Shown: positions 121-44,942 of the stretch, one piece after another
Layout of the letters: each line of letters starts with the position of its first letter
How positions within the stretch are numbered: position 1 is the stretch's first letter
Source: a virus
Virus record (IMG/VR): IMGVR_UViG_3300005594_000003
Location: 1-45,490 of that record
Strand: one strand, 5' to 3'
DNA length: 45,490 nucleotides
Notes under the pieces: model-generated
Databases searched by the model: none
What the model saw: only the letters and a program-made list of their open reading frames with translations
What the model was told of the DNA's origin: nothing
Program-made: the position numbers and the translations under genes

Positions 121-269
121 AGATCGACAGCCACAAGACCGCGCTGGCCGATATCTACAAAACCGACCCGGAAGCAATCGTTGCCTTTGTCGATGAATAC
201 GTGCGCCGGAACCACAAGACCCGCGCCATTGCTGGCGTGACCGTAACCCAAGAGCAAGAGGCATACTAA
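3..269 (+). CDS. Coiled-coil early protein, C-terminal part (continues from 44944)
   Basis: This is the 3' end of the gene that starts at 44944. Across the circular join the full product is about 231 residues. The visible part is rich in Ala, Glu, Lys and Gln with heptad-like spacing, then a more globular C-terminus ending in QEQEAY. The stop codon TAA shares its last base with the ATG of ssb, so the two are translationally coupled. Its place between the ERF annealing protein and SSB suggests a role with the recombination module, but I recognise no family. Confidence 0.85.
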   Translation, partial: NLEAQREVQQAKDAAIEAEKAAQAAKKDQVKGLRTVTRYKIDSHKTALADIYKTDPEAIVAFVDEYVRRNHKTRAIAGVTVTQEQEAY

Positions 270-709
270 TGCAGAAACTAATCATCGCAGGCACCACGGG
301 CAAAGACGCCGTGTTGCGCCGTACAGGCAGCGGAGACGCCGTGCTGGGGTTCTCGCTGGCCGTGGATAACGGCAAGGACAAGAACGGCCAGAAGCGCGAA
401 ACCACATGGTACGATTGCAGCATCTGGGGGAAGCGGGCTGAAAGCCTTGAGCGGTACATTACCAAAGGCACCAAGCTGACCCTTGAGGGACGCCCGACCG
501 TCCGCGCCCACGAGGGCAAAGCCTATCTCGGCATTTCCGTAAGCGACCTGACGTTTCAAGGCGGCGGGGATAGCGGCGGTCAATCGCAGGGCTATGACAG
601 CGGCAGCACGGGCAACTATGACGCGCCGAGCGGCTACGGCGCGGGCGGTAACCCGAATAGCGGGCGCGACCTAGATGACGAAATTCCATTCAATTACAAC
701 TACTTGTAA
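269..709 (+). CDS. ssb: Single-stranded DNA-binding protein
   Basis: A 146-residue protein with an N-terminal OB-fold of the bacterial SSB type: an MQKLIIAGTTGKDAVLR opening, a WYDCSIWGKRAE segment and a TKLTLEGRPTVRAHEGKAYL segment, about residues 1-100. A Gly/Ser/Gln/Tyr-rich linker follows, then an acidic tip DLDDEIPF. SSB coats single-stranded DNA in replication and recombination and recruits partners through that tip. Here five residues, NYNYL, follow the tip, which is normally the extreme C-terminus. The gene follows the ERF gene and the coiled-coil gene, the usual arrangement of a phage annealing module. The start overlaps the upstream stop. Confidence 0.95.
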   Translation: MQKLIIAGTTGKDAVLRRTGSGDAVLGFSLAVDNGKDKNGQKRETTWYDCSIWGKRAESLERYITKGTKLTLEGRPTVRAHEGKAYLGISVSDLTFQGGGDSGGQSQGYDSGSTGNYDAPSGYGAGGNPNSGRDLDDEIPFNYNYL

Positions 710-712
710 GAC

Positions 713-1141
713 ATGATGCGGCAAGCCCTCACACCAGAGCAGGCCGGGCGGCTGGCGGAGTGGGTCGAAGGACTTACCCCGCCGTTCACCCTGACCATGC
801 GCGAAGGCAAGGTGCGGACCATTTCGCAGAATTCTTTGCTCCACAAATGGTACGGCGAGATAGCCCGCCAGAAAGGCGACAGAACCGCCGCGCAGGTAAA
901 AGGCCAGTGCCACCGCGAATACGGTTTGGCAATCAAGCTGCGTGACCCGCAGTGGGCTTGGATATGGAACCACAGCGCCGGGGCGTTGGATTATGAGCGG
1001 CAATGCAAGGTGCTGGCTTCGGGCGTGTTCAACGTATCCAGCAGCATGACCGTAGCCGAATTGACCGAATATATGGACGCCATGCAGCAGGACTACACCG
1101 CGCAGGGGGTCAGACTTACGCAGCCGGAGGATAAGCAGTGA
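713..1141 (+). CDS. NinB/YbcN-like recombination protein
   Basis: 142 residues. The central motif RTISQNSLLHKWYGEIARQ, at about residues 36-54, and the C-terminal VSSSMTVAELTEYMDAMQ region resemble the NinB/Orf/YbcN family of phage recombination mediators, which act with SSB and annealing proteins on single-stranded DNA. Position directly after ssb and ERF supports this. Two consecutive ATGs mark the start and the Shine-Dalgarno is weak. The stop overlaps the next GTG start by four bases. The family assignment is from motif and context only. Confidence 0.7.
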   Translation: MMRQALTPEQAGRLAEWVEGLTPPFTLTMREGKVRTISQNSLLHKWYGEIARQKGDRTAAQVKGQCHREYGLAIKLRDPQWAWIWNHSAGALDYERQCKVLASGVFNVSSSMTVAELTEYMDAMQQDYTAQGVRLTQPEDKQ

Positions 1142-1494
1142 GAATTTTAGTATGTGGCAGCCGCCATTGCGACGAAGAATTGAGCGACCTTGTATGGAAT
1201 AGGCTGCAAGACATTATCCCCGGAAATGAGCCTTGCACAATCATTCACGGCGCGGCACCGGGCGTCGATACTCAGGCAATGATTGTTGCCGACATGCTGC
1301 CCAACTGTAAGCACCTGCCATTTGAGGCGGAATGGAACAAGCATGGCCGCGCCGCTGGACCCATCCGAAACAAGCGGATGCTGGACGAGGGCAAGCCGGA
1401 TTTAGTCGTCGCATTCCCCGGCGGGCGCGGGACTGCAAACATGGTCAAGCAAGCTAAGGCTGGCGGATTCAAGGTGATTGAGGTCACGCCATGA
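1138..1494 (+). CDS. SLOG/YspA-like (DUF2493-type) nucleotide-binding protein
   Basis: 118 residues starting with GTG in a GTGA overlap. It opens with MRILVCGSRH, has IIHGAAPGVDTQA at about residues 39-51 and PGGRGTANMVKQAKAGGFKVIEV near the end. These are the glycine-rich loops of the SLOG (YspA/DprA-related) Rossmann-like fold, which binds nucleotides or nucleotide-derived ligands. Such small stand-alone proteins are frequent in phage early regions and their role is not settled. Coding overlaps with both neighbours indicate one operon. Confidence 0.8.
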   Translation: MRILVCGSRHCDEELSDLVWNRLQDIIPGNEPCTIIHGAAPGVDTQAMIVADMLPNCKHLPFEAEWNKHGRAAGPIRNKRMLDEGKPDLVVAFPGGRGTANMVKQAKAGGFKVIEVTP

Positions 1495-1877
1495 ACAAGC
1501 CCCTCCGCCGCACCCCCATGCGCCGCAAGTCGAAGAAGCGGGCCGCGCGTGAGGCATCGCCAGAGGGCCGCGAAGATGCGGAGTATCTGGCGAAGGTCCA
1601 CAACCTGCCGTGTGTCATATGCGAAGGCTTTGGCATGACGCAGAACAGCCCGACAGAGGCGCACCACGTCAAGAGCGGGCGTTTTGGCAAGGACAGGACG
1701 CCCGACAAAATGGCAATCCCGCTCTGCCACTCGCACCACAACAAGCTGCGGCCCTACCCCGGCGACGAAGACAAGATCGGCTACCACAACGCGCAGGCCA
1801 CATGGGAAAGCCTGTACGGCGAGGACCACGAATACAGCGCGGCAACCCGCGACAGGATTGAAAGGATGATGTTTTGA
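1491..1877 (+). CDS. Ref-like HNH-fold nuclease
   Basis: 128 residues with a very basic N-terminus (residues 1-25), then CVICEG at about residues 41-46, EAHHVKSG, and PLCHSHHNKL. This CxxC / HH / CxxHH layout matches the phage P1 Ref (RecA-dependent nuclease) and DUF968-type HNH families, in which zinc-stabilised His-Asn residues cut DNA. In the P1 system Ref cuts at RecA-bound D-loops, so a role in recombination fits its place in this module. The exact family is inferred from motifs. Start and stop overlap both neighbours by four bases. Confidence 0.8.
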   Translation: MNKPLRRTPMRRKSKKRAAREASPEGREDAEYLAKVHNLPCVICEGFGMTQNSPTEAHHVKSGRFGKDRTPDKMAIPLCHSHHNKLRPYPGDEDKIGYHNAQATWESLYGEDHEYSAATRDRIERMMF

Positions 1878-3892: not shown

Positions 3893-4047
3893 GCCAGCCG
3901 ACCGACAAGAAGGTGATGGACCTTGTTGCCAAGTGGGAGGCCACGGGGCGCATTGTCCGAAAGGTTATCATCGAAGGCAAGCGCATTGAGGTTGAGTTTG
4001 ACCGCGCACCCGTCAAAGGCGTGACTTTGGATAACGTCAAATGGTGA
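3889..4047 (+). CDS. Small basic protein preceding the integrase
   Basis: 52 residues from ATG at 3889, in an ATGA overlap. The sequence alternates a helix (VMDLVAKWEATG) with short charged strands (VRKVIIEGKRIEVEFDRAP). Its stop lies inside the start of the integrase gene, so the two are co-translated. Position just before int would fit an excisionase-like or accessory factor, but there is no clear winged-helix motif, so this is only a possibility. Confidence 0.6.
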   Translation: MSQPTDKKVMDLVAKWEATGRIVRKVIIEGKRIEVEFDRAPVKGVTLDNVKW

Positions 4048-5030
4048 AGCGCTTTTTGCCGAGATACGTCTACCGGATGGGCCGCAACGGCTATCTGTAC
4101 TATCGGCATGACGGGGTTTCGCACCGGATGCCTGACGATCCGGCAAGCGCCGAGTTTGCGCAGGAATATGCCCGCCTGCGGAGTGGCCGCGCCCTTCCAA
4201 CATCCAAGCGCACCGTCAAGAAGCTGATCGCGTCCTACCTATCCTCGCCCAAGTGGGAGGGGCTGTCGCACAACACGCAGAAAAGCTACCGGCAATCGTT
4301 TCGTTACCTCGAAGAGAAGATCGGCCCATACGATCCAGCCCGAATTAAGCCGCATCACGTCTATGACATGCGCGACAGCATGACAGACAAGCCGACCACC
4401 GCCAAGCGGCGCGTAGGGGCGCTGTCAGTGCTTATGCAGCACGCAATCAAGCTGGGGTGGATAGAGCGCAACCCCGTTCACCCGCGCTTTGAACACCTCA
4501 AGACCAAGAAGCCACCGCGCCAGCCTTGGCCGCTCGAACTGATCCAAGCCGCCCGCGATACCGCTGACCCCGAAACGCTGCTGATCTTTGAAATGCTGCT
4601 AGGCACCGGGCAACGCATCAGCGATGTGCTGGCAATGCAGTGGGGCCACATTGAAGATGGGGGGATATGGGTCACTCAGAGCAAGACCAAGGCGCGGCTA
4701 TTTGTTCCGTTCACCGACCGCCTGCGGGATATGCTCGACGCCACGCAGCGCCGGGGGCTGTACATCATCACGCTGCCAGATGGTCGCCCCATGAAGTACA
4801 ACAGCGCGTACAATCGCATGATGGAACTGCGCAAGTCTATCGGAGCCGAGGCGTATGACAATCACGCTCTGCGCCATTCTGCGGCCTCTGAGATTGCCTC
4901 ACTCCCCGGCATGACCGACGAACACGTTAAGGCGCTGACAGGCCACACAAGCGCCGGAATGGTCCGCCTGTACTCAGGGCCAGCAGGTCAGAAAGCGCGT
5001 GCGAAAGAGGCTCAGAAGGCCCGGAAATGA
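4041..5030 (+). CDS. int: Tyrosine recombinase integrase
   Basis: 329 residues. An N-terminal Arg/Tyr-rich arm-type segment and a SAM-like core-binding domain (about residues 55-155) precede the catalytic domain. Catalytic residues visible: Arg192 in GTGQRISD, a Lys in SKTKA (215-217), His275 and Arg278 in NHALRHS, His302 in LTGHTS and Tyr311 in VRLYSG. It catalyses integration of the circular genome at attP and, with a directionality factor, excision. It is the last gene of the rightward early operon and is followed by a terminator, with the probable attP just beyond. A complete set of catalytic residues argues for a functional lysogeny module. Confidence 0.95.
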   Translation: MVKRFLPRYVYRMGRNGYLYYRHDGVSHRMPDDPASAEFAQEYARLRSGRALPTSKRTVKKLIASYLSSPKWEGLSHNTQKSYRQSFRYLEEKIGPYDPARIKPHHVYDMRDSMTDKPTTAKRRVGALSVLMQHAIKLGWIERNPVHPRFEHLKTKKPPRQPWPLELIQAARDTADPETLLIFEMLLGTGQRISDVLAMQWGHIEDGGIWVTQSKTKARLFVPFTDRLRDMLDATQRRGLYIITLPDGRPMKYNSAYNRMMELRKSIGAEAYDNHALRHSAASEIASLPGMTDEHVKALTGHTSAGMVRLYSGPAGQKARAKEAQKARK

Positions 5031-5884: not shown

Positions 5885-6115
5885 CTATTCAGACTCTTGC
5901 GGCGGATACCAACGGCGCAGCACACCCTCGGGGTCTTGGCAAAAGAACGTGTGCCCCTGCATCGCATTGATGGATCGCCTTAGCCGCTCAATCTCGCGCG
6001 CCTGCTGTTCGATTTTCATTTCCTTGATGAGCAATTCATCGGCGGCACGACCACAAAGGTCGGCAACGTGCGTCTTCGGGCCGACCTCGGCCAGCAATTC
6101 ATCCCTAAGCCCCAT
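5885..6115 (-). CDS. Hypothetical coiled-coil protein
   Basis: 76 residues with a good Shine-Dalgarno (AAGGAG) before the ATG. A helical middle (LLIKEMKIEQQAREIERLRRSINAM) is followed by a short aromatic tail. This size and the closing HTFFCQDPEGVLRRW are unassigned. Confidence 0.6.
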   Translation of the reverse strand: MGLRDELLAEVGPKTHVADLCGRAADELLIKEMKIEQQAREIERLRRSINAMQGHTFFCQDPEGVLRRWYPPQESE

Positions 6116-6127
6116 ACCTTGCTCCTT

Positions 6128-6607
6128 TTAAGACTTCCGGGCGCGGGTAGCCCGCACCGCTGCTGCATTTGCCAGCGCCCCAACTGAGGCGATGAACTCC
6201 GACATATCGTCACCCGGCATGAACAACGCCGAACCGTTGTCTTTCAGCGTGTGGATATAGACCGACAGGCCAATATCGAAGCACTGATCGAGGGTATGCT
6301 GTGCGTGTTTTTGAGAGAACCCGACAGCCAGCGGAGTTGAGAAAAACACCTGTCCGTGCGGCAGTTTAAGCTTTGCCATACGGTAGAAGAAGTCAGCCCG
6401 CAGGGGTAGCTTGCTGGGCCAGTTTGTCGTGCGAACCTTGCGCACGTCCTCAACGAATACGGGCGACACATCGGCCCCGCCTAGCAAGTCCTCTGGGATA
6501 CCCCATGTGCGGGCTTGGGCAATCTGCGTTGCCTCACTCGGAAGCCACGGGTGCAGCGTCACAAGTGCGAACTTGTTGGATTTGGACGGGGTTTCCTTAC
6601 GGGTCAT
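6128..6607 (-). CDS. Unknown protein, first gene of the leftward switch group
   Basis: 159 residues. The N-terminus has LVTLHPWLPSEATQIAQARTWGI, the middle FYRMAKLKLPHGQVFFSTPLAVGF, and the C-terminus SVYIHTLKDNGSALFMPGDDMSEFIASVGALANAAAVRATRARKS. The basic Ala/Arg-rich tail could bind DNA. I do not recognise the family. It faces away from the accessory genes that start at 6727, with a palindrome-bearing promoter region between, as expected for a self-regulated gene at a switch. The Shine-Dalgarno is poor. Confidence 0.65.
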   Translation of the reverse strand: MTRKETPSKSNKFALVTLHPWLPSEATQIAQARTWGIPEDLLGGADVSPVFVEDVRKVRTTNWPSKLPLRADFFYRMAKLKLPHGQVFFSTPLAVGFSQKHAQHTLDQCFDIGLSVYIHTLKDNGSALFMPGDDMSEFIASVGALANAAAVRATRARKS

Positions 6608-6726
6608 GGCGCTGCACTGCTTTCTTTCAATTTCCTTACAACGTAAAGAAAGAGGTTGCGCTAGTCAAGCAGTAATGCTATCTTACATCATACAGAAAGC
6701 ACCAAATAGAGAACATGGAGTAACCA
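6608..6726. promoter_or_regulatory. Divergent promoter region with palindromic candidate operator
   Basis: Rightward: TTGCGC (6656-6661), a 17-base spacer and TATCTT (6679-6684), about 40 bases before the ATG at 6727. Leftward: TTGACT (reverse strand, 6668-6663), 17 bases and TACGTT (6645-6640). A 21-base imperfect palindrome at 6631-6651 (arms TTTC.TTAC and GTAA.GAAA around AAC) overlaps the leftward -10. A second inverted pair, CTTTCTTT (6620-6627) and AAAGAAAG (6645-6652), overlaps it. This is what a shared operator would look like, but the regulator is not identified. Confidence 0.5.
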
Positions 6727-6936
6727 ATGGCCCACGAAAGCAACGGCACAATCAAGAAGATCAACCTTGACGATGGCATCGCTTGGATTGCCCGGAATGA
6801 CGACACCAGCGGCGCTCCGCATGAAGTCGCGCAGATTGTCAGCGTCCTATTGCTGGCCGACCTGTTTGGCAAAACCCCGGCCAGCATCGCGCGGCGAGTG
6901 ATCCGCTACAAAAACACCCACGGGCAGGCCGCTTAA
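6727..6936 (+). CDS. Small hypothetical protein, first gene of accessory array
   Basis: 69 residues, with GGAG before the ATG. Sequence: an acidic N-terminus (INLDDGIAWIARNDD) and a helical C-terminus (VAQIVSVLLLADLFGKTPASIARRVIRYKN) with some helix-turn-helix character. It is the first gene after the divergent promoter. No family recognised. Confidence 0.6.
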   Translation: MAHESNGTIKKINLDDGIAWIARNDDTSGAPHEVAQIVSVLLLADLFGKTPASIARRVIRYKNTHGQAA

Positions 6937-7073
6937 TGGCTCGCCGCTGGCAACCCAAATACTCCTGCACCTGCGCCGCCTGCGGGTGGCGCGGGAAGCG
7001 CACCCGGCGCATGATGTCCAAGCCCTGCCCCAAGTGCGGCGGGTGGCGTACCATCACAGCCGACCAATCCTAA
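6936..7073 (+). CDS. Zinc-ribbon mini-protein (45 aa)
   Basis: 45 residues from an ATG whose first base is the last base of the preceding stop. It contains SCTCAACGWRGKR and KPCPKCGGWR, the CxxC pairs of a rubredoxin-like zinc ribbon, with clusters of Arg and Lys. It ends DQS and is followed by the repeated boundary sequence of this array. Confidence 0.65.
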   Translation: MARRWQPKYSCTCAACGWRGKRTRRMMSKPCPKCGGWRTITADQS

Positions 7074-7090
7074 AAACCCCGGAGGCGCCG

Positions 7091-7348
7091 ATGGGCCTGC
7101 AAGATGAACTAGAAAGGGTCGAAGCCGAAGCGGCTCGGCTGCGCCGCGAGATAGCGGCAGGGCCGTGCCGCGAGCATGGCCACGACTGGCAATTCTATGG
7201 CGGCACGAACGCCGGATGCGGGCCCGACTGCGGATGCTCGGCGCCGGTCAACGTCTGCGCCAAGTGCGGCGACTGCGACTATGGCGAAAACGATGGGGCC
7301 GAAGCGGTCCGAACCGACTGCGCTGCCGCGCAGTCCAAATCCAACTAA
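7091..7348 (+). CDS. Cys-rich zinc-binding protein
   Basis: 85 residues from ATG 7091 (GGAGG six bases upstream). An N-terminal helix (LQDELERVEAEAARLRREI) is followed by a Cys/His-rich part (CREHGHDW, CGPDCGCSAP, CAKCGDCDYG), probably one or two zinc sites. Ends KSN at a boundary repeat. No family recognised. Confidence 0.6.
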   Translation: MGLQDELERVEAEAARLRREIAAGPCREHGHDWQFYGGTNAGCGPDCGCSAPVNVCAKCGDCDYGENDGAEAVRTDCAAAQSKSN

Positions 7349-7362
7349 CCCCGGAGACACCT

Positions 7363-7575
7363 ATGACATTGAACCGGAAAGAGGCGCAAAGGATGGATCG
7401 CTACATCCAAGCCGCCAAAGCAGCCCGAGAGGCACTTGAGCCGCACCCGTCTTGGAAGCGCGAGGAACTGAGGGCGAAGGCGCTCATCGCGATCCGCGAT
7501 GCCTGCGGCGGGACGCCCGGAACGGATGCCGTCTATGAAAACGCCGAGCGAACCCTCGGCATCAAGTCCAACTAA
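7363..7575 (+). CDS. Small helical protein
   Basis: 70 residues from the ATG just after the repeated boundary sequence. Helical and charged (LNRKEAQRMDRYIQAAKAAREALE, ELRAKALIAIRDACGG). Ends KSN. No function known. Confidence 0.6.
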   Translation: MTLNRKEAQRMDRYIQAAKAAREALEPHPSWKREELRAKALIAIRDACGGTPGTDAVYENAERTLGIKSN

Positions 7576-7592
7576 CGCCGACGGAGAGAACC

Positions 7593-7832
7593 ATGAAAGC
7601 ATATACCATTCCCGTGATTGCAGCGGCTCAACGGGTATCCATACAGCAAATGGAAGGCTTGGATCGCCACGAACACCGCGACCTCGACACGCTCGAAGCT
7701 GCTGGCTTGATGGATAAAGGCATCTGCGAAGATGCCGAAATGCAAGATAGCCTAGAGGTTGGCGAAACCATGTGGACCTTCAATGCGGATGGGGACGCGC
7801 TGATAGCAGCCCTTCGCGGCGAATCCAACTAA
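7593..7832 (+). CDS. Small acidic protein
   Basis: 79 residues, acidic, starting MKAYTIPVIAAAQRVSIQQ. Its predicted pattern is strand-helix-strand. It begins and ends at copies of the boundary repeat and ends ESN. No family recognised. Confidence 0.6.
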   Translation: MKAYTIPVIAAAQRVSIQQMEGLDRHEHRDLDTLEAAGLMDKGICEDAEMQDSLEVGETMWTFNADGDALIAALRGESN

Positions 7833-7846
7833 CGCCGGAGGCACCT

Positions 7847-8230
7847 ATGAGCGACCAATTTCTGATCGAGAAGCGCGGCCTTTACTACCGCCCGAACTCC
7901 TGCGGATACACGGGCCTAAAACGAGAGGCAGGCCGATACTCTTTTGACGATGCAGCGATCCACGCGGGGCCAAATGGCCCAGATGGATCAACCGATGGCA
8001 TGGGCATCTGGCGCGAGGATGAAGCACCTCAGTTTTCCACTTCATGCCCTTGGGATGTGAAGCTGATTGAAAAAACCAGATTGGATACTTTGCGCGAAGC
8101 CCACCTTGCGGTCAGCAAGGCTCGAACTGAGGTGATCCACTCTGGCGTCGTCGCATATGTGCAGGGAGTCGCGAAGGGACATAGCCGTTCCGAAGACGCC
8201 ATCGCCGCTTTGATCCAACAGTCCAGCTAA
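7847..8230 (+). CDS. Hypothetical protein with FLIEKRGLYYRPNSCGYTG motif
   Basis: 127 residues. The N-terminal 35 residues (LIEKRGLYYRPNSCGYTGLKREAGRYS) form a short module that recurs at the start of many phage proteins of unknown role. A disordered Gly/Asp stretch and a C-terminal helix follow. It lies between two boundary repeats and ends QSS. Confidence 0.65.
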   Translation: MSDQFLIEKRGLYYRPNSCGYTGLKREAGRYSFDDAAIHAGPNGPDGSTDGMGIWREDEAPQFSTSCPWDVKLIEKTRLDTLREAHLAVSKARTEVIHSGVVAYVQGVAKGHSRSEDAIAALIQQSS

Positions 8231-8244
8231 CCCCCGGAGGCACC

Positions 8245-8775
8245 ATGCCAAACCATATTGTGAACGAAATCCGCCTCCACGGCGTCGAGGCGGCAAAGGT
8301 TCGCGCCATCGCATCTGGCCCGGAGCGCGTGATCGACTTTGAGAAGCTGCTGCCCCTGCCGTTGAACTTCTGGCCCGGCAGTGTGTCGATGGCCCACAAG
8401 CAGGCTTTCCCCGGAACCCATCTCGATGCAGCGACGGAAACGTGGGGGACGAAGTGGAACGCCTACGCGTTGACCGAAGACAGCTTGCGGGAAGATGGGA
8501 CAGACACGATCCTGACCTTTGAAACCGCATGGGCACCGCCACGGGGATGGGTTGTGGCCGTTTTCAGCACGCTGGAATGCGACATCACCCACCACTGGCA
8601 GGACGAAGGCAGCGATGATGTGTATCGCGAACGCTACACGTTCACCGGTGACAACAGCATGTTTTTCCCAAAGTGGGAGACGGATGTTGTCGAACAAGGA
8701 AGCGACGATCACCGCCGCCTCTACAAACTGCAATGGGGTGTTGAAACCCCCGCCGAACTCGCAGAGTCCAACTAA
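8245..8775 (+). CDS. DUF1281/YubB ferredoxin-like domain protein
   Basis: 176 residues. It has NHIVNEIRLHG at the N-terminus, DFEKLLPLPLNFW, WGTKWNAYAL at about residues 67-76 and FETAWAPPRGWVVAVFS at about 92-108. These match the DUF1281/YubB-type ferredoxin-like fold found on plasmids and phages, whose biochemical role is unknown. Flanked by boundary repeats and ending ESN. Confidence 0.75.
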   Translation: MPNHIVNEIRLHGVEAAKVRAIASGPERVIDFEKLLPLPLNFWPGSVSMAHKQAFPGTHLDAATETWGTKWNAYALTEDSLREDGTDTILTFETAWAPPRGWVVAVFSTLECDITHHWQDEGSDDVYRERYTFTGDNSMFFPKWETDVVEQGSDDHRRLYKLQWGVETPAELAESN

Positions 8776-8789
8776 CCCCGGAGGCACCT

Positions 8790-9089
8790 ATGAAGCCCAC
8801 GACCGCCCCCCCGCTTGATGCAACGCGCATACCGCGCCCCCTCCGTGAATGGCACGAAGATCACGGCGACGTGCTCTGGTGGTGCTGGGGATGGGATGGC
8901 GAACGCTGGCTGGATGAGCCGCCCTATGTCGGCTCGCCGCTAGACTGCGGGCAAACCGTCGAACTCCACACGCACCGCGAAACAGGTGAAGCGCCCGCCG
9001 CCCGCATCTTCGTAGGCGGCTGGCCCGGATACCATACGCACTGGACGCCGCTGCCCTCGCAGCCCTACGCGCCCAACCAGACCAACTAA
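8790..9089 (+). CDS. DUF551-like protein
   Basis: 99 residues with an aromatic core (VLWWCWGWDGERWLDEPPYVGSPLD) and a closing GYHTHWTPLPSQ. A C-terminal HWxPLP signature is shared with DUF551-type proteins, including those at 42760 and 43014. Role unknown. Between two boundary repeats and ending QTN. Confidence 0.6.
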   Translation: MKPTTAPPLDATRIPRPLREWHEDHGDVLWWCWGWDGERWLDEPPYVGSPLDCGQTVELHTHRETGEAPAARIFVGGWPGYHTHWTPLPSQPYAPNQTN

Positions 9090-9102
9090 CCCCGGAGGAC
9101 AT

Positions 9103-9408
9103 ATGACCCAGCTAAACTTGATGGACGTGCAGCAGGCCGCGAGCGCCGCTCTTGCGGCCCATGAAAAATTCATGGGGGGCCAGCCGATCACGGCAGAGGA
9201 AAATGCCATCGCTGATGCCGTGATGAAGGCAGGCTGCTACGCCGTTGCTGCCTATGAAGCGCACGTTCCTAAATCGGGCAGCGAATACAGCACTTTGCTC
9301 TGGGCATTCCTGACAGCCCTGATCGACCCGCTATCCAAAGACCTCGATGCGCTGCGAGAAGACCCCGCCGCCGGTGAGGTTGCACGCGCTTCGCGCAACC
9401 AGTCCTAA
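9103..9408 (+). CDS. Paralogue of the C-terminal domain of the Lar fusion
   Basis: 101 residues with GGAGG before the ATG. Nearly its whole length aligns by eye with residues 78-175 of the protein at 2712-3257: QAAS.ALAAHEKFM.G..IT.EE, then AAYEAHVPKSGSEYSTL, then FLTALIDP and LREDPAAGEVARA. This shows the domain exists on its own and as a fusion in one genome. Function unknown. Confidence 0.7.
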   Translation: MTQLNLMDVQQAASAALAAHEKFMGGQPITAEENAIADAVMKAGCYAVAAYEAHVPKSGSEYSTLLWAFLTALIDPLSKDLDALREDPAAGEVARASRNQS

Positions 9409-9436
9409 AATCCCCCATGCATACATGGAGAAGACG

Positions 9437-10721: not shown

Positions 10722-11852
10722 CTAATTCCAAAAGCCGTGATTGAGCGTCAACAGCCGCCCGCCGCCCTTGCGATAGGCAACGCCGATCATCTCGGACGGG
10801 CTGTTATACAGGTTTTCCCGCGCATGGCGTCCGAGAGGGGCAATCGCCCGCACCTGATTGAACGTCATGCCCGTTTCATCCATCGCCCGCTCTTTCAGGC
10901 GGTGAAGGTGGCCGACCCACAACTCGCGGAAAACGGCGCCGGCCCATAGCTGGGGATAGGCCGTGGCGAAGGCCAAGACAAATTCGGTCGGGTTCTTTTT
11001 CAGGTCGCCGTGATGGCTGGCGATGAAGTTGCCCTCCCAAGCATGGGCAAACACGTCGATGCCATCGGTCTCAATCGTTACCCGCGCTTCATTGCGATAC
11101 CGCTGCTTTAGCGCCGCTCTAAGGATACGCGCGGTCTGCGGGTCATGGTTCCCCCGCAGCGACTTGTAAATCACATGGTCGGAGCGTTCTAGCGCCTGCT
11201 CAATGCGCCACGCTTCCACCTCTGTCGCAACGTCTGTGGTGTCGTCATACTCAGCGTCTACCGCCAGCGGGTGCTTGCTCTGCGGTGTCAGGTTTGACGG
11301 GTCATTCTGCTCAGTGAAGTCGCCGTTGTTTACGATGATAGTGCACTCAGCCGGGGGAAGCCGCTCCAGCAGGTCAGACGTGCCGGATTTAAGCCGATCC
11401 ACGCAGTCTGCGGTGCCGTAGTCACCCACGCGCATTGAAAGGTGCACGTCACTGGTGGGGATGAAATTGCGCACGTCTGAGCGCGTCTGTAGGGGGCGTT
11501 TGATAGCAGGGGCGGGGCGTATGTTGTCCAGCCTATCCGCGATGCGTTCTAGCACGTCCTCCGGCTCGTCGTCGGTCTTGGGCTTTAGCTGGACGCTGTA
11601 GCTGATCCCGTCCTCGGATTTGGTCTTAATCCAAGCGAGGTTTGGCACCATCTTTGTGCCTGCCGCTTCCATGCTGTCGCGTATGGCGGGGTCAACGTCT
11701 AGCCCCCTCGCCTTTCCGATCATCACCCGATGCCGGAACGTGTTGATATTCACGCCAAGCGCCGCAGCCGCCGCCGTGTTGCTGTTGTGATGCTCTGCCT
11801 TGGCTTGGATCGCTTCAAGGCATTGCGCGTCTGTGAGGGGCGGCGTAGGCAC
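10722..11852 (-). CDS. Metallophosphoesterase with N-terminal helix-turn-helix
   Basis: 376 residues, GTG start immediately after the preceding stop. The N-terminus (residues 8-50, NTAAAAALGVNINTFRHRV) is a helix-turn-helix of the Fis/resolvase kind. The C-terminal domain has the calcineurin-like metal ligands in order: SDVH (134-137), NNGD (175-178), GNHD (234-237), HHGD (280-283) and GHLH (314-317). Such enzymes are two-metal phosphodiesterases or phosphatases, and in phages they are usually linked to DNA processing. It is the last gene of the leftward late run. The substrate is unknown. Confidence 0.85.
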   Translation of the reverse strand: MPTPPLTDAQCLEAIQAKAEHHNSNTAAAAALGVNINTFRHRVMIGKARGLDVDPAIRDSMEAAGTKMVPNLAWIKTKSEDGISYSVQLKPKTDDEPEDVLERIADRLDNIRPAPAIKRPLQTRSDVRNFIPTSDVHLSMRVGDYGTADCVDRLKSGTSDLLERLPPAECTIIVNNGDFTEQNDPSNLTPQSKHPLAVDAEYDDTTDVATEVEAWRIEQALERSDHVIYKSLRGNHDPQTARILRAALKQRYRNEARVTIETDGIDVFAHAWEGNFIASHHGDLKKNPTEFVLAFATAYPQLWAGAVFRELWVGHLHRLKERAMDETGMTFNQVRAIAPLGRHARENLYNSPSEMIGVAYRKGGGRLLTLNHGFWN

Positions 11853-33947: not shown

Positions 33948-34336
33948 TGCATACCAAACTGAGAAAAGGGATCATCCGGCTCATCGTCTTTCCCTTGATG
34001 TACTTTCGACCGATCCACAGGCGTTGCACCAAGCGATGAAATGGCTTGGCGGTACGCCGTGAAGAACGAGGCGGGCAGATCGGGCGTCTTGCCCATGATC
34101 TCTGCCCGCATGATTGACGCGACCTCAAGCGCCGCCCGATCCTCATACACCAGCCAACCGAGTTCGCTGGCGAATGTCTTCCACGCCTTCTTCGCATTTG
34201 GACTGAGATAATCTGGCGCAGAGCCAACCCCCTTGCCGCTCATCTCAGGGTCAGAGCGATCACGGAACCGCTGAGGGTCTTTCGCCGCTGCGCCGGTCAA
34301 CTTGGCCTTCGATGTAGGCACTCTAGGACGCGGCAT
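33944..34336 (-). CDS. terS: Terminase small subunit (P27-like)
   Basis: 130 residues, AAGGTG seven bases before ATG. Basic N-terminus (PRPRVPTSKAKLTGAAAKDPQRFRDR), then LSPNAKKAWKTFASELGWLVYEDRAALEVASIMRAEI, the P27-type small terminase core. It recognises the packaging site. It precedes terL with a four-base overlap. Confidence 0.88.
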   Translation of the reverse strand: MPRPRVPTSKAKLTGAAAKDPQRFRDRSDPEMSGKGVGSAPDYLSPNAKKAWKTFASELGWLVYEDRAALEVASIMRAEIMGKTPDLPASFFTAYRQAISSLGATPVDRSKVHQGKDDEPDDPFSQFGMQ

Positions 34337-34378
34337 ATATATTCACCTTACCGAATGTTTGAATTGCGGATGTTTACG

Positions 34379-34753
34379 TTAGATGGGTTGGTCGGTTTCC
34401 AAGATGGACCCATTTTCAAACTCAGACACCCCCCCTACCGGGTACCCGTCCAGACCCACCGGCCTGTAAGCCAGCTTTGCACGCTCAATTGCCTCCACAT
34501 CATCACCGTAACGGTCCTCAATGCTGCGGCAGGGTCCATCGTGACAGCCTTTGCATACCGACCGAAGATTGCCGGGGTCGAAGTGTCCCGCCTCATAGAG
34601 GTGATGCGGCCTTGTGTGATCCACTACCGCGCTTGTGCGCTTGCGTTTGCCTTGCTCTAGCAGGGTGCCGCACATCCGGCATGTCCATAGGTCTCGGTCT
34701 AGCACCTCAAGCCGGAGCCTGCGCCAACGTGGCGTCCTGTGAAGATCAGCCAC
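34379..34753 (-). CDS. HNH endonuclease next to terminase
   Basis: 124 residues, GTG start. RTPRWRRLRLEVLDRDLWTCRMCG, then VVDHTRPHH, GHFDPGNLRSVCKGCHDG give the zinc-binding CxxC pairs and the HNH active site (DH, N, H). HK97-type cos phages need such a nuclease with TerL for cos cleavage, so a cos site is expected close by. The upstream Shine-Dalgarno is weak. Confidence 0.88.
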   Translation of the reverse strand: MADLHRTPRWRRLRLEVLDRDLWTCRMCGTLLEQGKRKRTSAVVDHTRPHHLYEAGHFDPGNLRSVCKGCHDGPCRSIEDRYGDDVEAIERAKLAYRPVGLDGYPVGGVSEFENGSILETDQPI

Positions 34754-38961: not shown

Positions 38962-39787
38962 TTTGTCCTCCGTGGATTGCTCTGAAAGGGGCTGGCGTTA
39001 TTGCCGGGGCGTTCTTGGCGGCTGCGAAGTGGCGCAGCGGCTCAATGAAATATCTGAGGCTACCGGGCGGGCCGTCGCGCTTGCGCTTCGCAGTCTCGGC
39101 CACGATTTCGAGCGTCTCGCTTTCGCTGAGAGAAAGATCATTGCGGGCCTTGTCGAACTCCGCGAACTCTGCGCGGCCTCCGATGGTCCTGCCATTTGCT
39201 GTGAGTCCCGATGCGTCATGGCCTGCGGCAACCAAAACCTTCTCGCGAAAGGTCAGGTCCGCGCCCGCGCTATCATCATCAATCTTATCTGTATTTGGTT
39301 CTGGTTCTTCGCGATATGTCTGCGACGGCTTTTCTAAGCTATTGTTTTTATTATGTGCGCCGCTGTTTTCAGCGAGATTATCTCCAGATTTACTTGAGAT
39401 TATCTCCGGTTTATCTCCAGATGATCCCGCGTTAATCTCCAGATCAGAGGTTTTAGCCTGCCCGGCGGATGAGGCATTTTCGGATTGCTGCCCCTGATAT
39501 TTCTTCTGCTTGGCCTTTTCCTTCTCCGCTCTGCCGTTGCAGATCAGGCCGTCTTTTACGCTGATCTTGCCCCGCTCAATCAGAGATTTGCGCAGCGAAT
39601 TCCACTTGCGAACAGATGTGCCAAGTTGGCCCGCGATGTACTGGGGATCATCTGGCAAGCCCCGTGCGCCCATCATATAGATGAGGTCCAGCACGAGGCC
39701 GTATGCGCCCTTCTCTTCCAGCGACATGCCTGCCGTGCCTTCAAAGAAGTCGCGCGGGTAGCGGGGATAGTAAGGTAGAGCGTTCAT
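38891..39787 (-). CDS. Replication initiator, DUF1376 family
   Basis: 298 residues from ATG 39787. ALPYYPRYPRDFFEGTAGMSLEEKGAYGLVLDLIYMMGARGLPDDPQYIAGQLGTS is the DUF1376/YdaU domain (1-80), with winged-helix character. A low-complexity linker (about 100-190: KSGDNLAENSGAHNKNNSLEKP) contains the iteron DNA. A C-terminal helical region ends in FIEPLRHFAAAKNAP. DUF1376 proteins are phage initiators, as lambda O is, and the origin also lies inside this gene. Confidence 0.85.
   Translation of the reverse strand: MNALPYYPRYPRDFFEGTAGMSLEEKGAYGLVLDLIYMMGARGLPDDPQYIAGQLGTSVRKWNSLRKSLIERGKISVKDGLICNGRAEKEKAKQKKYQGQQSENASSAGQAKTSDLEINAGSSGDKPEIISSKSGDNLAENSGAHNKNNSLEKPSQTYREEPEPNTDKIDDDSAGADLTFREKVLVAAGHDASGLTANGRTIGGRAEFAEFDKARNDLSLSESETLEIVAETAKRKRDGPPGSLRYFIEPLRHFAAAKNAPAITPAPFRAIHGGQNDKRPSKSEFKQNAFISGAAISS
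39374..39444. repeat. Four iterons, candidate replication origin inside the initiator gene
   Basis: Four copies of TTATCTCCAGAT or close variants start at 39378, 39400, 39411 and 39433 (the second ends CCGGTT; the fourth is TAATCTCCAGAT). Spacing is 22, 11 and 22 bases, whole turns of DNA. Since 11 is not a multiple of three, the copies fall in different reading frames and are not repeats of protein. An AT-rich stretch lies at 39330-39355 (CTAAGC, then TATTGTTTTTATTATG). This is the lambda-type origin plan. Confidence 0.7.
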
Positions 39788-44264: not shown

Positions 44265-44942
44265 ATGAACGCCAAGACCGATATTAAGCCGCAGCACAAC
44301 TGCATCGCAATCGCGCTCGCCGCAGCACAGGCTCAGATGGGGCGGGCTCTCAAGTCCGCGACGAACTCGCACTTCAAGAACAAGTATGCCGACCTCGCCA
44401 GCGTTGTCGAAGCCTGTATGCCCTCACTTAACGCGCATGGCATCGCAGTTATCCAGCCGACCACGGATGAGGAAAGCGGGCGCTTTGTTGAAACGATCCT
44501 CATTCATGGCGAGAGCGGCGAAACGCTCAAGTGCCGCGTCCCGCTGATCGTGCAGAAAAATGACATGCAGGGCTACGGCTCCGCAGTTACCTATGCCCGC
44601 CGCTATGGGCTTATGAGCATGGCTGGCATCGCGCCGGAGGACGACGACGGGAACGACGCGGCCAAAGCCGCGCCCAAAGAGCGCCGCCAAGAAAAGCCAG
44701 CCCCCCCCAACCCCGAAGCCGTGGCCGATGGGATGATTGCCGCAGTCAAAGGCGCAGATAGCGAAGACCGCCTGAAAGGCATTTGGAGCAGCGACAAGTT
44801 CAAAGCTGACTTGGCGTGGCTGCGCAAGCAAAGCCCAGAGAAGGCCGCTCACGTTGAGGCTGCAAAGGACTTCCGCAAGCAAAGCCTCTCACAAGCGAAC
44901 CACGACCTTGACGACGAACTGCCCGAATTTGAGGACGCATAA
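44265..44942 (+). CDS. erf: ERF-family single-strand annealing protein
   Basis: 225 residues. IAIALAAAQAQMGRALKSATNSHFKNKYADLASVVEACMPSLNAHGIAVIQP, then LKCRVPLIVQKNDMQGYGSAVTYARRYGLMSMAGIAPEDDDGND are ERF domain signatures (residues 10-130). The C-terminal part is charged and helical. ERF proteins anneal complementary strands in phage recombination and genome circularisation. SSB, NinB-like and Ref-like genes follow. Confidence 0.95.
   Translation: MNAKTDIKPQHNCIAIALAAAQAQMGRALKSATNSHFKNKYADLASVVEACMPSLNAHGIAVIQPTTDEESGRFVETILIHGESGETLKCRVPLIVQKNDMQGYGSAVTYARRYGLMSMAGIAPEDDDGNDAAKAAPKERRQEKPAPPNPEAVADGMIAAVKGADSEDRLKGIWSSDKFKADLAWLRKQSPEKAAHVEAAKDFRKQSLSQANHDLDDELPEFEDA

Follow-up and report, generated by a model that had tools for sequence, protein, structure and literature searches.

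A recurring gene-junction element as a probable cassette boundary in small-gene arrays of alphaproteobacterial phages

The virus record IMGVR_UViG_3300005594_000003, analyzed at its full length of 45,490 nucleotides and hereafter called the window, carries a rightward array of unrelated small genes joined by a short recurring element that spans the end of one gene, its stop codon, a Shine-Dalgarno sequence and the start codon of the next gene. A position-weight profile detects seven full junction elements (7068-9105) and a half copy at 9403, all on the + strand (Table 1), recovering every one of the seven junctions at which a preceding sequence-only reading had recognized one sequence, TCCAACTAAC followed by CCCGGAGGCA and CCTATG. 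The copies at 7340, 7824 and 8767, described there as nearly identical over 26 bases, indeed differ pairwise at 1-2 of the 26 positions, and they are the only sites in the window within three mismatches of the 26-base consensus, with none in 100 shuffles. The other four full copies (7068, 7567, 8222 and 9081) are diverged. At 7068 and 9403 the stop comes one triplet sooner (TCC TAA); the TCCTAAAAACCCC form of the 7068 element is found again at loci L059, L062 and L076, and TCCTAAAAACCCA at L065. The gene at 6936-7073 is the first to end in the element. That most proteins of the array end in Ser-Asn or a near variant, as first noticed, is also correct: four of the eight end exactly in Ser-Asn and the others in near variants.

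Table 1. Junction elements, array genes and other features of the window
Feature	Position	Strand	Remarks
Junction element TCCTAAAAACCCCGGAGGCGCCGATG	7068-7093	+	TCC/TAA form; stop of gene 6936-7073, start of 7091
Junction element TCCAACTAACCCCGGAGACACCTATG	7340-7365	+	profile, consensus match
Diverged junction element TCCAACTAACGCCGACGGAGAGAACCATG	7567-7595	+	profile
Junction element TCCAACTAACGCCGGAGGCACCTATG	7824-7849	+	profile, consensus match
Junction element TCCAGCTAACCCCCGGAGGCACCATG	8222-8247	+	Ser-Ser form; profile
Junction element TCCAACTAACCCCGGAGGCACCTATG	8767-8792	+	profile, consensus match
Junction element ACCAACTAACCCCGGAGGACATATG	9081-9105	+	profile
Orphan left half TCCTAAAATCCCC, end of last cassette	9403-9415	+	Shine-Dalgarno and start not directly after
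Zinc-ribbon-like protein, 45 aa, ends ADQS	6936-7073	+	weak Pfam matches below cut-off
Cassette gene, 85 aa, ends SKSN	7091-7348	+	part similar to Rhizobium phage proteins
Cassette gene, 70 aa, ends IKSN	7363-7575	+	
Cassette gene, 79 aa, ends GESN	7593-7832	+	homologue search: none found
Cassette gene, 127 aa, ends QQSS	7847-8230	+	homologue search: none clear
Cassette gene, 176 aa, DUF1281_C/Api92-like (PF18406), ends AESN	8245-8775	+	
Cassette gene, 99 aa, ends NQTN	8790-9089	+	
Last cassette gene, 101 aa, ends RNQS	9103-9408	+	
Left array border, divergent gene	6128-6607	-	no family matched
Right array border, exonuclease	10722-11852	-	
Erf-family single-strand annealing protein	44265-44942	+	proposed exchange enzyme
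Single-strand DNA-binding protein	269-709	+	
NinB/Orf recombination mediator	713-1141	+	
Ref-like RecA-dependent nuclease	1491-1877	+	
Tyrosine integrase	4041-5030		ordinary phage-integrase profile

At least 22 further phages or prophages of alphaproteobacteria, and one Phaeobacter plasmid, contain related copies of the element, and the carriers are mostly unrelated to one another. The exact 26-base pattern gave no match in viral contigs, so that a looser pattern was required; the relaxed form matched 9 viral and 12 bacterial contigs, and another pattern matched 23 viral contigs. Rhodobacterales (Brevirhabdus, Actibacterium, Pseudooceanicola, Salipiger and Aquimixticola) account for five of the 12 bacterial matches, the profile detecting the element in four of these, and the remainder, single matches in distant taxa, look like chance. 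Matches in enterobacterial plasmids fall within a gene for an MFS transporter, on the opposite strand, and were likewise set aside as apparently fortuitous. A named relative, Aurantimonas phage AmM-1, displays four copies at gene junctions, and Phaeobacter inhibens plasmid pP88_h several within a small-gene array; in this 41-kb plasmid (L126), possibly a phage-plasmid, the array (6001-8295) lies downstream of an acyl-homoserine-lactone synthase gene. In whole bacterial genomes the matches concentrate in the prophage locus, with no match to a reversed control pattern, and in the Salipiger family 4 of 397 genomes were matched, three of the four at known prophage loci; host chromosomes are almost devoid of the element. 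With the profile applied to all carriers at a score of 10, 93-94 elements were detected in the window and 25 phage loci, compared to 2 in second-order Markov-shuffled sequence, and the 23 carriers together comprise 116 elements (0.59% of 952 kb), adjoining unrelated genes.

Single genes from between the junctions have moved between phages. When the proteins adjoining junctions were clustered, sixteen families were found to occur more than once, often in phages with nothing else in common; single genes common to otherwise unrelated phages display 76-99% DNA identity, as in the pairs L062-L063 (97-99%), L058-L071 (90%), L059-L065 (90%), L059-L068 (87%) and window-L056 (83%). In addition, near-identical duplicates with different neighbours stand within a single array in L063 (99.5% DNA and 100% protein identity), L059 (95%) and L061 (89%), and four phages together hold a 100-aa gene, family F2, in five contexts (86-95%). 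In most of 19 homologous pairs the DNA similarity sets in at the start codon or up to 31 bases ahead of it and gives out 3-34 bases past the stop, in both cases inside the element. Among homologous segments of at least 150 bases and at least 75% identity, counted in the 23 carriers within a single phage or across weakly related ones, 22 of 52 have both ends inside the element, compared to 0.16 expected under random placement, a null that ignores the tendency of homology to break at gene ends; by our count the 22 represent about nine cassette families, with differing neighbours. The arrays also vary between related phages: for the pairs AmM-1/L060 phage and G016/G029, 68-78% is alignable outside the array and 0-23% inside (by blastn, tblastx having been discarded because GC-rich frames gave full coverage), and G030, a distant relative of the window phage, carries an array at the corresponding position with no cassette in common. 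A fixed gene order, which the sequence-only reading had named as telling against exchange, is thus not what the phages display: the homologue of gene 8245 in L004/L074 (81% identical) has other neighbours, as do the homologues of gene 8790, with the element present in AmM-1 (78% aa identity) and L056 (84%). The proposed exchange of genes as cassettes at the junctions is therefore supported, with the role of the element as exchange site visible as a breakpoint pattern only.

What is conserved at the junctions is DNA or RNA, not the Ser-Asn peptide. The consensus reads ARTCC-AACTAA-CCC(C)-GGAGG-CACC-ATG, with TCC and CCC nearly invariant and a variable middle, and TCCAACTAACCCC, TCCTAAAAACCCC and TGAATCCAACAATCCCC are recurrent forms. 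The upstream stop lies at +6 from TCC in 55 copies, at +3 in 7, at -4 in 9, at -3 in 5, at +5 in 3 and elsewhere in a few others, so that all three frames of the element are represented. Of the 55 genes in the +6 class, 50 have TCC as penultimate codon and none has another Ser codon there, compared to 49 TCC among 285 Ser codons inside genes; the last codon is AAC in 34 and AGC in 16 of 55, whereas AAT, which accounts for 33 of 148 Asn codons inside genes, is absent (0/55), AAC being swapped for the non-synonymous AGC and never for the synonymous AAT. The exclusive use of TCC in all 50 cases, the avoidance of AAT and the stops in three frames bear out the earlier argument that translational coupling alone would not conserve the final coding bases. 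The same data contradict a functional C-terminal Ser-Asn tag under selection, a reading with next to no probability in our judgment even though most of the 55 genes do end in Ser-Asn or Ser-Ser: the stop stands before, within or after TCCAAC, and close homologues that lack the element also lack Ser-Asn. Thus, the homologue of gene 8245 in L005 (77% identical) ends in GKSPSA and that of gene 8790 in Labrenzia phage vB_LagS-V1 (67%) in APTFL, whereas homologues that carry the element end in Ser-Asn or a near variant; retention of Ser-Asn in junction-less homologues, the other outcome that was to count against cassettes, does not hold. There are two exceptions, (i) the F2 copy in L106, which keeps Ser-Asn through the codons TCA AAT and would favour a tag, and (ii) a remote 30% homologue in L006 ending in ESN with other codons, read here as a relic and a coincidence, respectively.

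The two halves of the element can also be separated. On the array strand, 19 left halves close an open frame with no Shine-Dalgarno and start behind it, compared to 2 on the other strand and about 2 per shuffled set, and a strong predicted terminator hairpin comes directly after an orphan left half in L059 and L071, L074 and L056 looking alike by eye. In L061, a duplication of about 300 bases (4338-4635 and 6236-6546, 83%) has left halves only at its borders, with no Shine-Dalgarno half. Since the left half also closes genes with no start behind them, in some cases ahead of terminators, it is more than an initiation signal. This finding weakens the explanation that the element is a regulatory or translational signal selected at each gene, either a binding site for an RNA or protein of phage or host, or an extended signal for ribosome binding and coupling, in phages whose ordinary mosaicism breaks at gene ends. 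Such a signal would account for the placement of the element, which with few exceptions sits at a stop-start junction and is oriented along transcription, for the Shine-Dalgarno inside it and for its conservation across unrelated phages, and similar short repeats do precede starts, namely the start-associated sequence (SAS) of Cluster K mycobacteriophages (PMC3203893) and an SAS-like repeat of phage Mordin (PMC4611695). The hosts' own genes, however, are without the element, and no protein family occurs in more than 10 of the 23 carriers (remote homologues would escape), so that a common phage trans-factor was rejected as a candidate. A UCC...GGA hairpin masking the Shine-Dalgarno was rejected as well, reaching only about -3 kcal/mol and being impossible in the GAGAGG, GCGAGG and CCCGAGG variants. 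That TCCARC pairs with the 3' end of 16S rRNA immediately 5' of the anti-Shine-Dalgarno is improbable, since collinearity with the Shine-Dalgarno is lacking and since TCCAAC, although the more frequent form, would presumably not be the better match to the alphaproteobacterial 16S end. Altogether, we regard the signal explanation as unlikely, though it is the strongest of the rivals.

The stop-to-start distance is mostly 12-20 bases, and the spacer between the halves varies by several bases through C-runs and longer insertions; at L066 (7267 and 9134), L124 (3362) and L126 (7537) the junction is longer, with a similar insert (CCCCAACCCCGAAACGCACC or close) between the left half and the ribosome-binding site. 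The variable spacer bears on whether a dedicated site-specific recombinase recognizes the element and moves the cassettes, as in integrons or invertase systems. Its size is close to that of many recombinase sites, the window encodes a tyrosine integrase, and a resolvase-type serine recombinase (Pfam E 3.5e-44) adjoins the L074 array in divergent orientation, DNA homologous to that region adjoining the arrays of L060, L064 and L069. This homologous DNA (67-73%) stands directly upstream of the array in L074 (3707-4457), L060 (5927-6685), L064 (36-651) and L069 (7579-8284). On the other hand, the serine recombinase is not adjacent to the window array or to most others, the window integrase has the profile of an ordinary phage integrase, and no dyad symmetry is seen in the element, unlike known sites of this kind. 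Because the half spacer varies and no protein family is common to the carriers, a dedicated recombinase is very improbable.

We therefore favour, at a probability of about 0.72, the reading that the junction is a common cassette boundary through which alphaproteobacterial phages trade, insert and duplicate single accessory genes. The left half (ARTCC-AACTAA-CCC) would form the 3' end of a cassette gene, and the right half (CGGAGGCACC-ATG) the ribosome-binding site and start of the next; since unrelated cassettes all carry the element, any two could be joined by recombination in about 25 bases of homology with both reading frames intact, the exchange leaving a functional stop, Shine-Dalgarno and start. 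As a result, single accessory genes could be traded, inserted and duplicated in an operon-like array. Pairing would take place inside the element by annealing recombination, promoted by a phage annealase (Erf in the window phage, RecT or Rad52-like proteins in some carriers) or by the host recombination machinery. By published values, Red-beta requires at least 23-27 bp for pairing and RecA 31-34 bp, and the Erf protein of phage D3 recombines diverged sequences (PMC3945230). At about the same place in the genome, the window phage encodes Erf and G030 a Rad52-like protein (34253-34681).

Several points weigh against this cassette-boundary reading, including (i) the random-placement null, which holds no control for phage homology usually breaking at gene ends; (ii) the dependence among the 22 segments, most of which come from families F1 and F2; (iii) the recovery of carriers by searching for the element, a bias in its favour; (iv) right halves only slightly more similar within than between phages (p = 0.012), a weak homogenization; (v) the divergence of many junctions to fewer than 23 identical bases; (vi) some further translational or RNA function, which would explain part of the conservation too; and (vii) the low number of carriers, 7 of 23, in which an Erf, RecT or Rad52-like annealase is recognized. 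The last count excludes a universal annealase among the recognized proteins, and the remaining carriers would therefore use another enzyme, host RecA with longer flanking homology, or unrecognized annealases.

The window phage is temperate and apparently complete. A 120-base terminal repeat makes the record look circularly complete, and in addition to the tyrosine integrase it encodes terminase, portal, major head protein and tape measure. A stretch homologous to the left border gene (61% DNA identity) also adjoins the arrays of L056 (7721-8263) and L071 (796-1313), making three phages with a divergent gene at the array border. A search anchored on the exonuclease at the right flank brought up a single relative, in which no junction element is clear. 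The last cassette gene (9103-9408) has a 42% identical paralogue elsewhere in the window, and direct repeats at 39378-39440 with 11-base spacing (TTATCTCC...) are iteron-like.

Conserved short boundary sequences, or linkers, have been proposed for mosaic phage modules (as cited in PMC3029335), and the junction element would work like those put forward for lambdoid phages: a short common sequence at module edges by which unlike genes are made exchangeable through general or annealing recombination. In agreement with this comparison, the same sequence borders different modules throughout the 116 elements, and homology between phages begins and ends at it, both in the segment count and in the 19 pairs followed in detail. 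Unlike such linkers, the element recurs from one single-gene boundary to the next along one array, spans stop, Shine-Dalgarno and start, and is common to otherwise unrelated phages of several hosts.

The element is neither the mycobacteriophage SAS nor an integron. SAS and its extended form (ESAS) are likewise multi-copy, in one orientation and directly before starts, include the Shine-Dalgarno, adjoin unrelated genes and are absent or rare in host genomes (PMC3203893). However, the 13-bp SAS consensus GGGATAGGAGCCC has no match in the window with up to two mismatches; SAS genes mostly follow intergenic gaps of more than 50 bp, whereas the element overlaps the previous stop; and neither a conserved half at the 3' end of the preceding gene nor a link to homology breakpoints, both found here, is described for SAS. 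The 26-bp repeat CCAACAATCCTAAACTGGAGAATCTA of Citrobacter phage Mordin (PMC4611695; L083, 8683-15217) also lies upstream of several small genes, and its first ten bases equal CCAACAATCC of one junction variant, but it resides in longer intergenic regions with further repeats and another Shine-Dalgarno context, in an Enterobacteriaceae phage. Integron cassettes resemble the array in comprising one gene each, co-oriented and ending in a common 3' element; here, the element is far shorter, with a variable spacer, and no IntI-type integrase is tied to the array, the window array being bordered by the no-family gene and the exonuclease with no integron integrase beside it. Three forms of the element fold only into short stems (-2.3 to -3.5 kcal/mol), with no inverted repeat of the attC type. 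Morons are also extra single genes inserted between phage genes, but carry their own promoter and terminator, whereas the genes here are packed as one array, with about 12-20 bases between them, too few for a terminator plus promoter at the junction. As a tentative extension, a shared nucleotide adapter kept by selection for exchangeability or host-factor recognition may render accessory genes plug-compatible across unrelated lineages of alphaproteobacterial phages, as an integron counterpart without a dedicated recombinase.

No prior description of the element in a phage context was found in the literature searched. The boundary-sequence principle is old and SAS is similar in look; what appears new is the element itself, its occurrence across alphaproteobacterial phages and the placing of breakpoints inside it. 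The origin of phage genome mosaicism is an old question, addressed here by many copies in many phages with breakpoints mapping into the sequence; exchange at boundaries thereby becomes open to direct testing in lysogenic marine bacteria. As a tag, the element can also help to locate the small accessory genes, almost none with a known function, that phages of Rhodobacterales and related hosts pass around.

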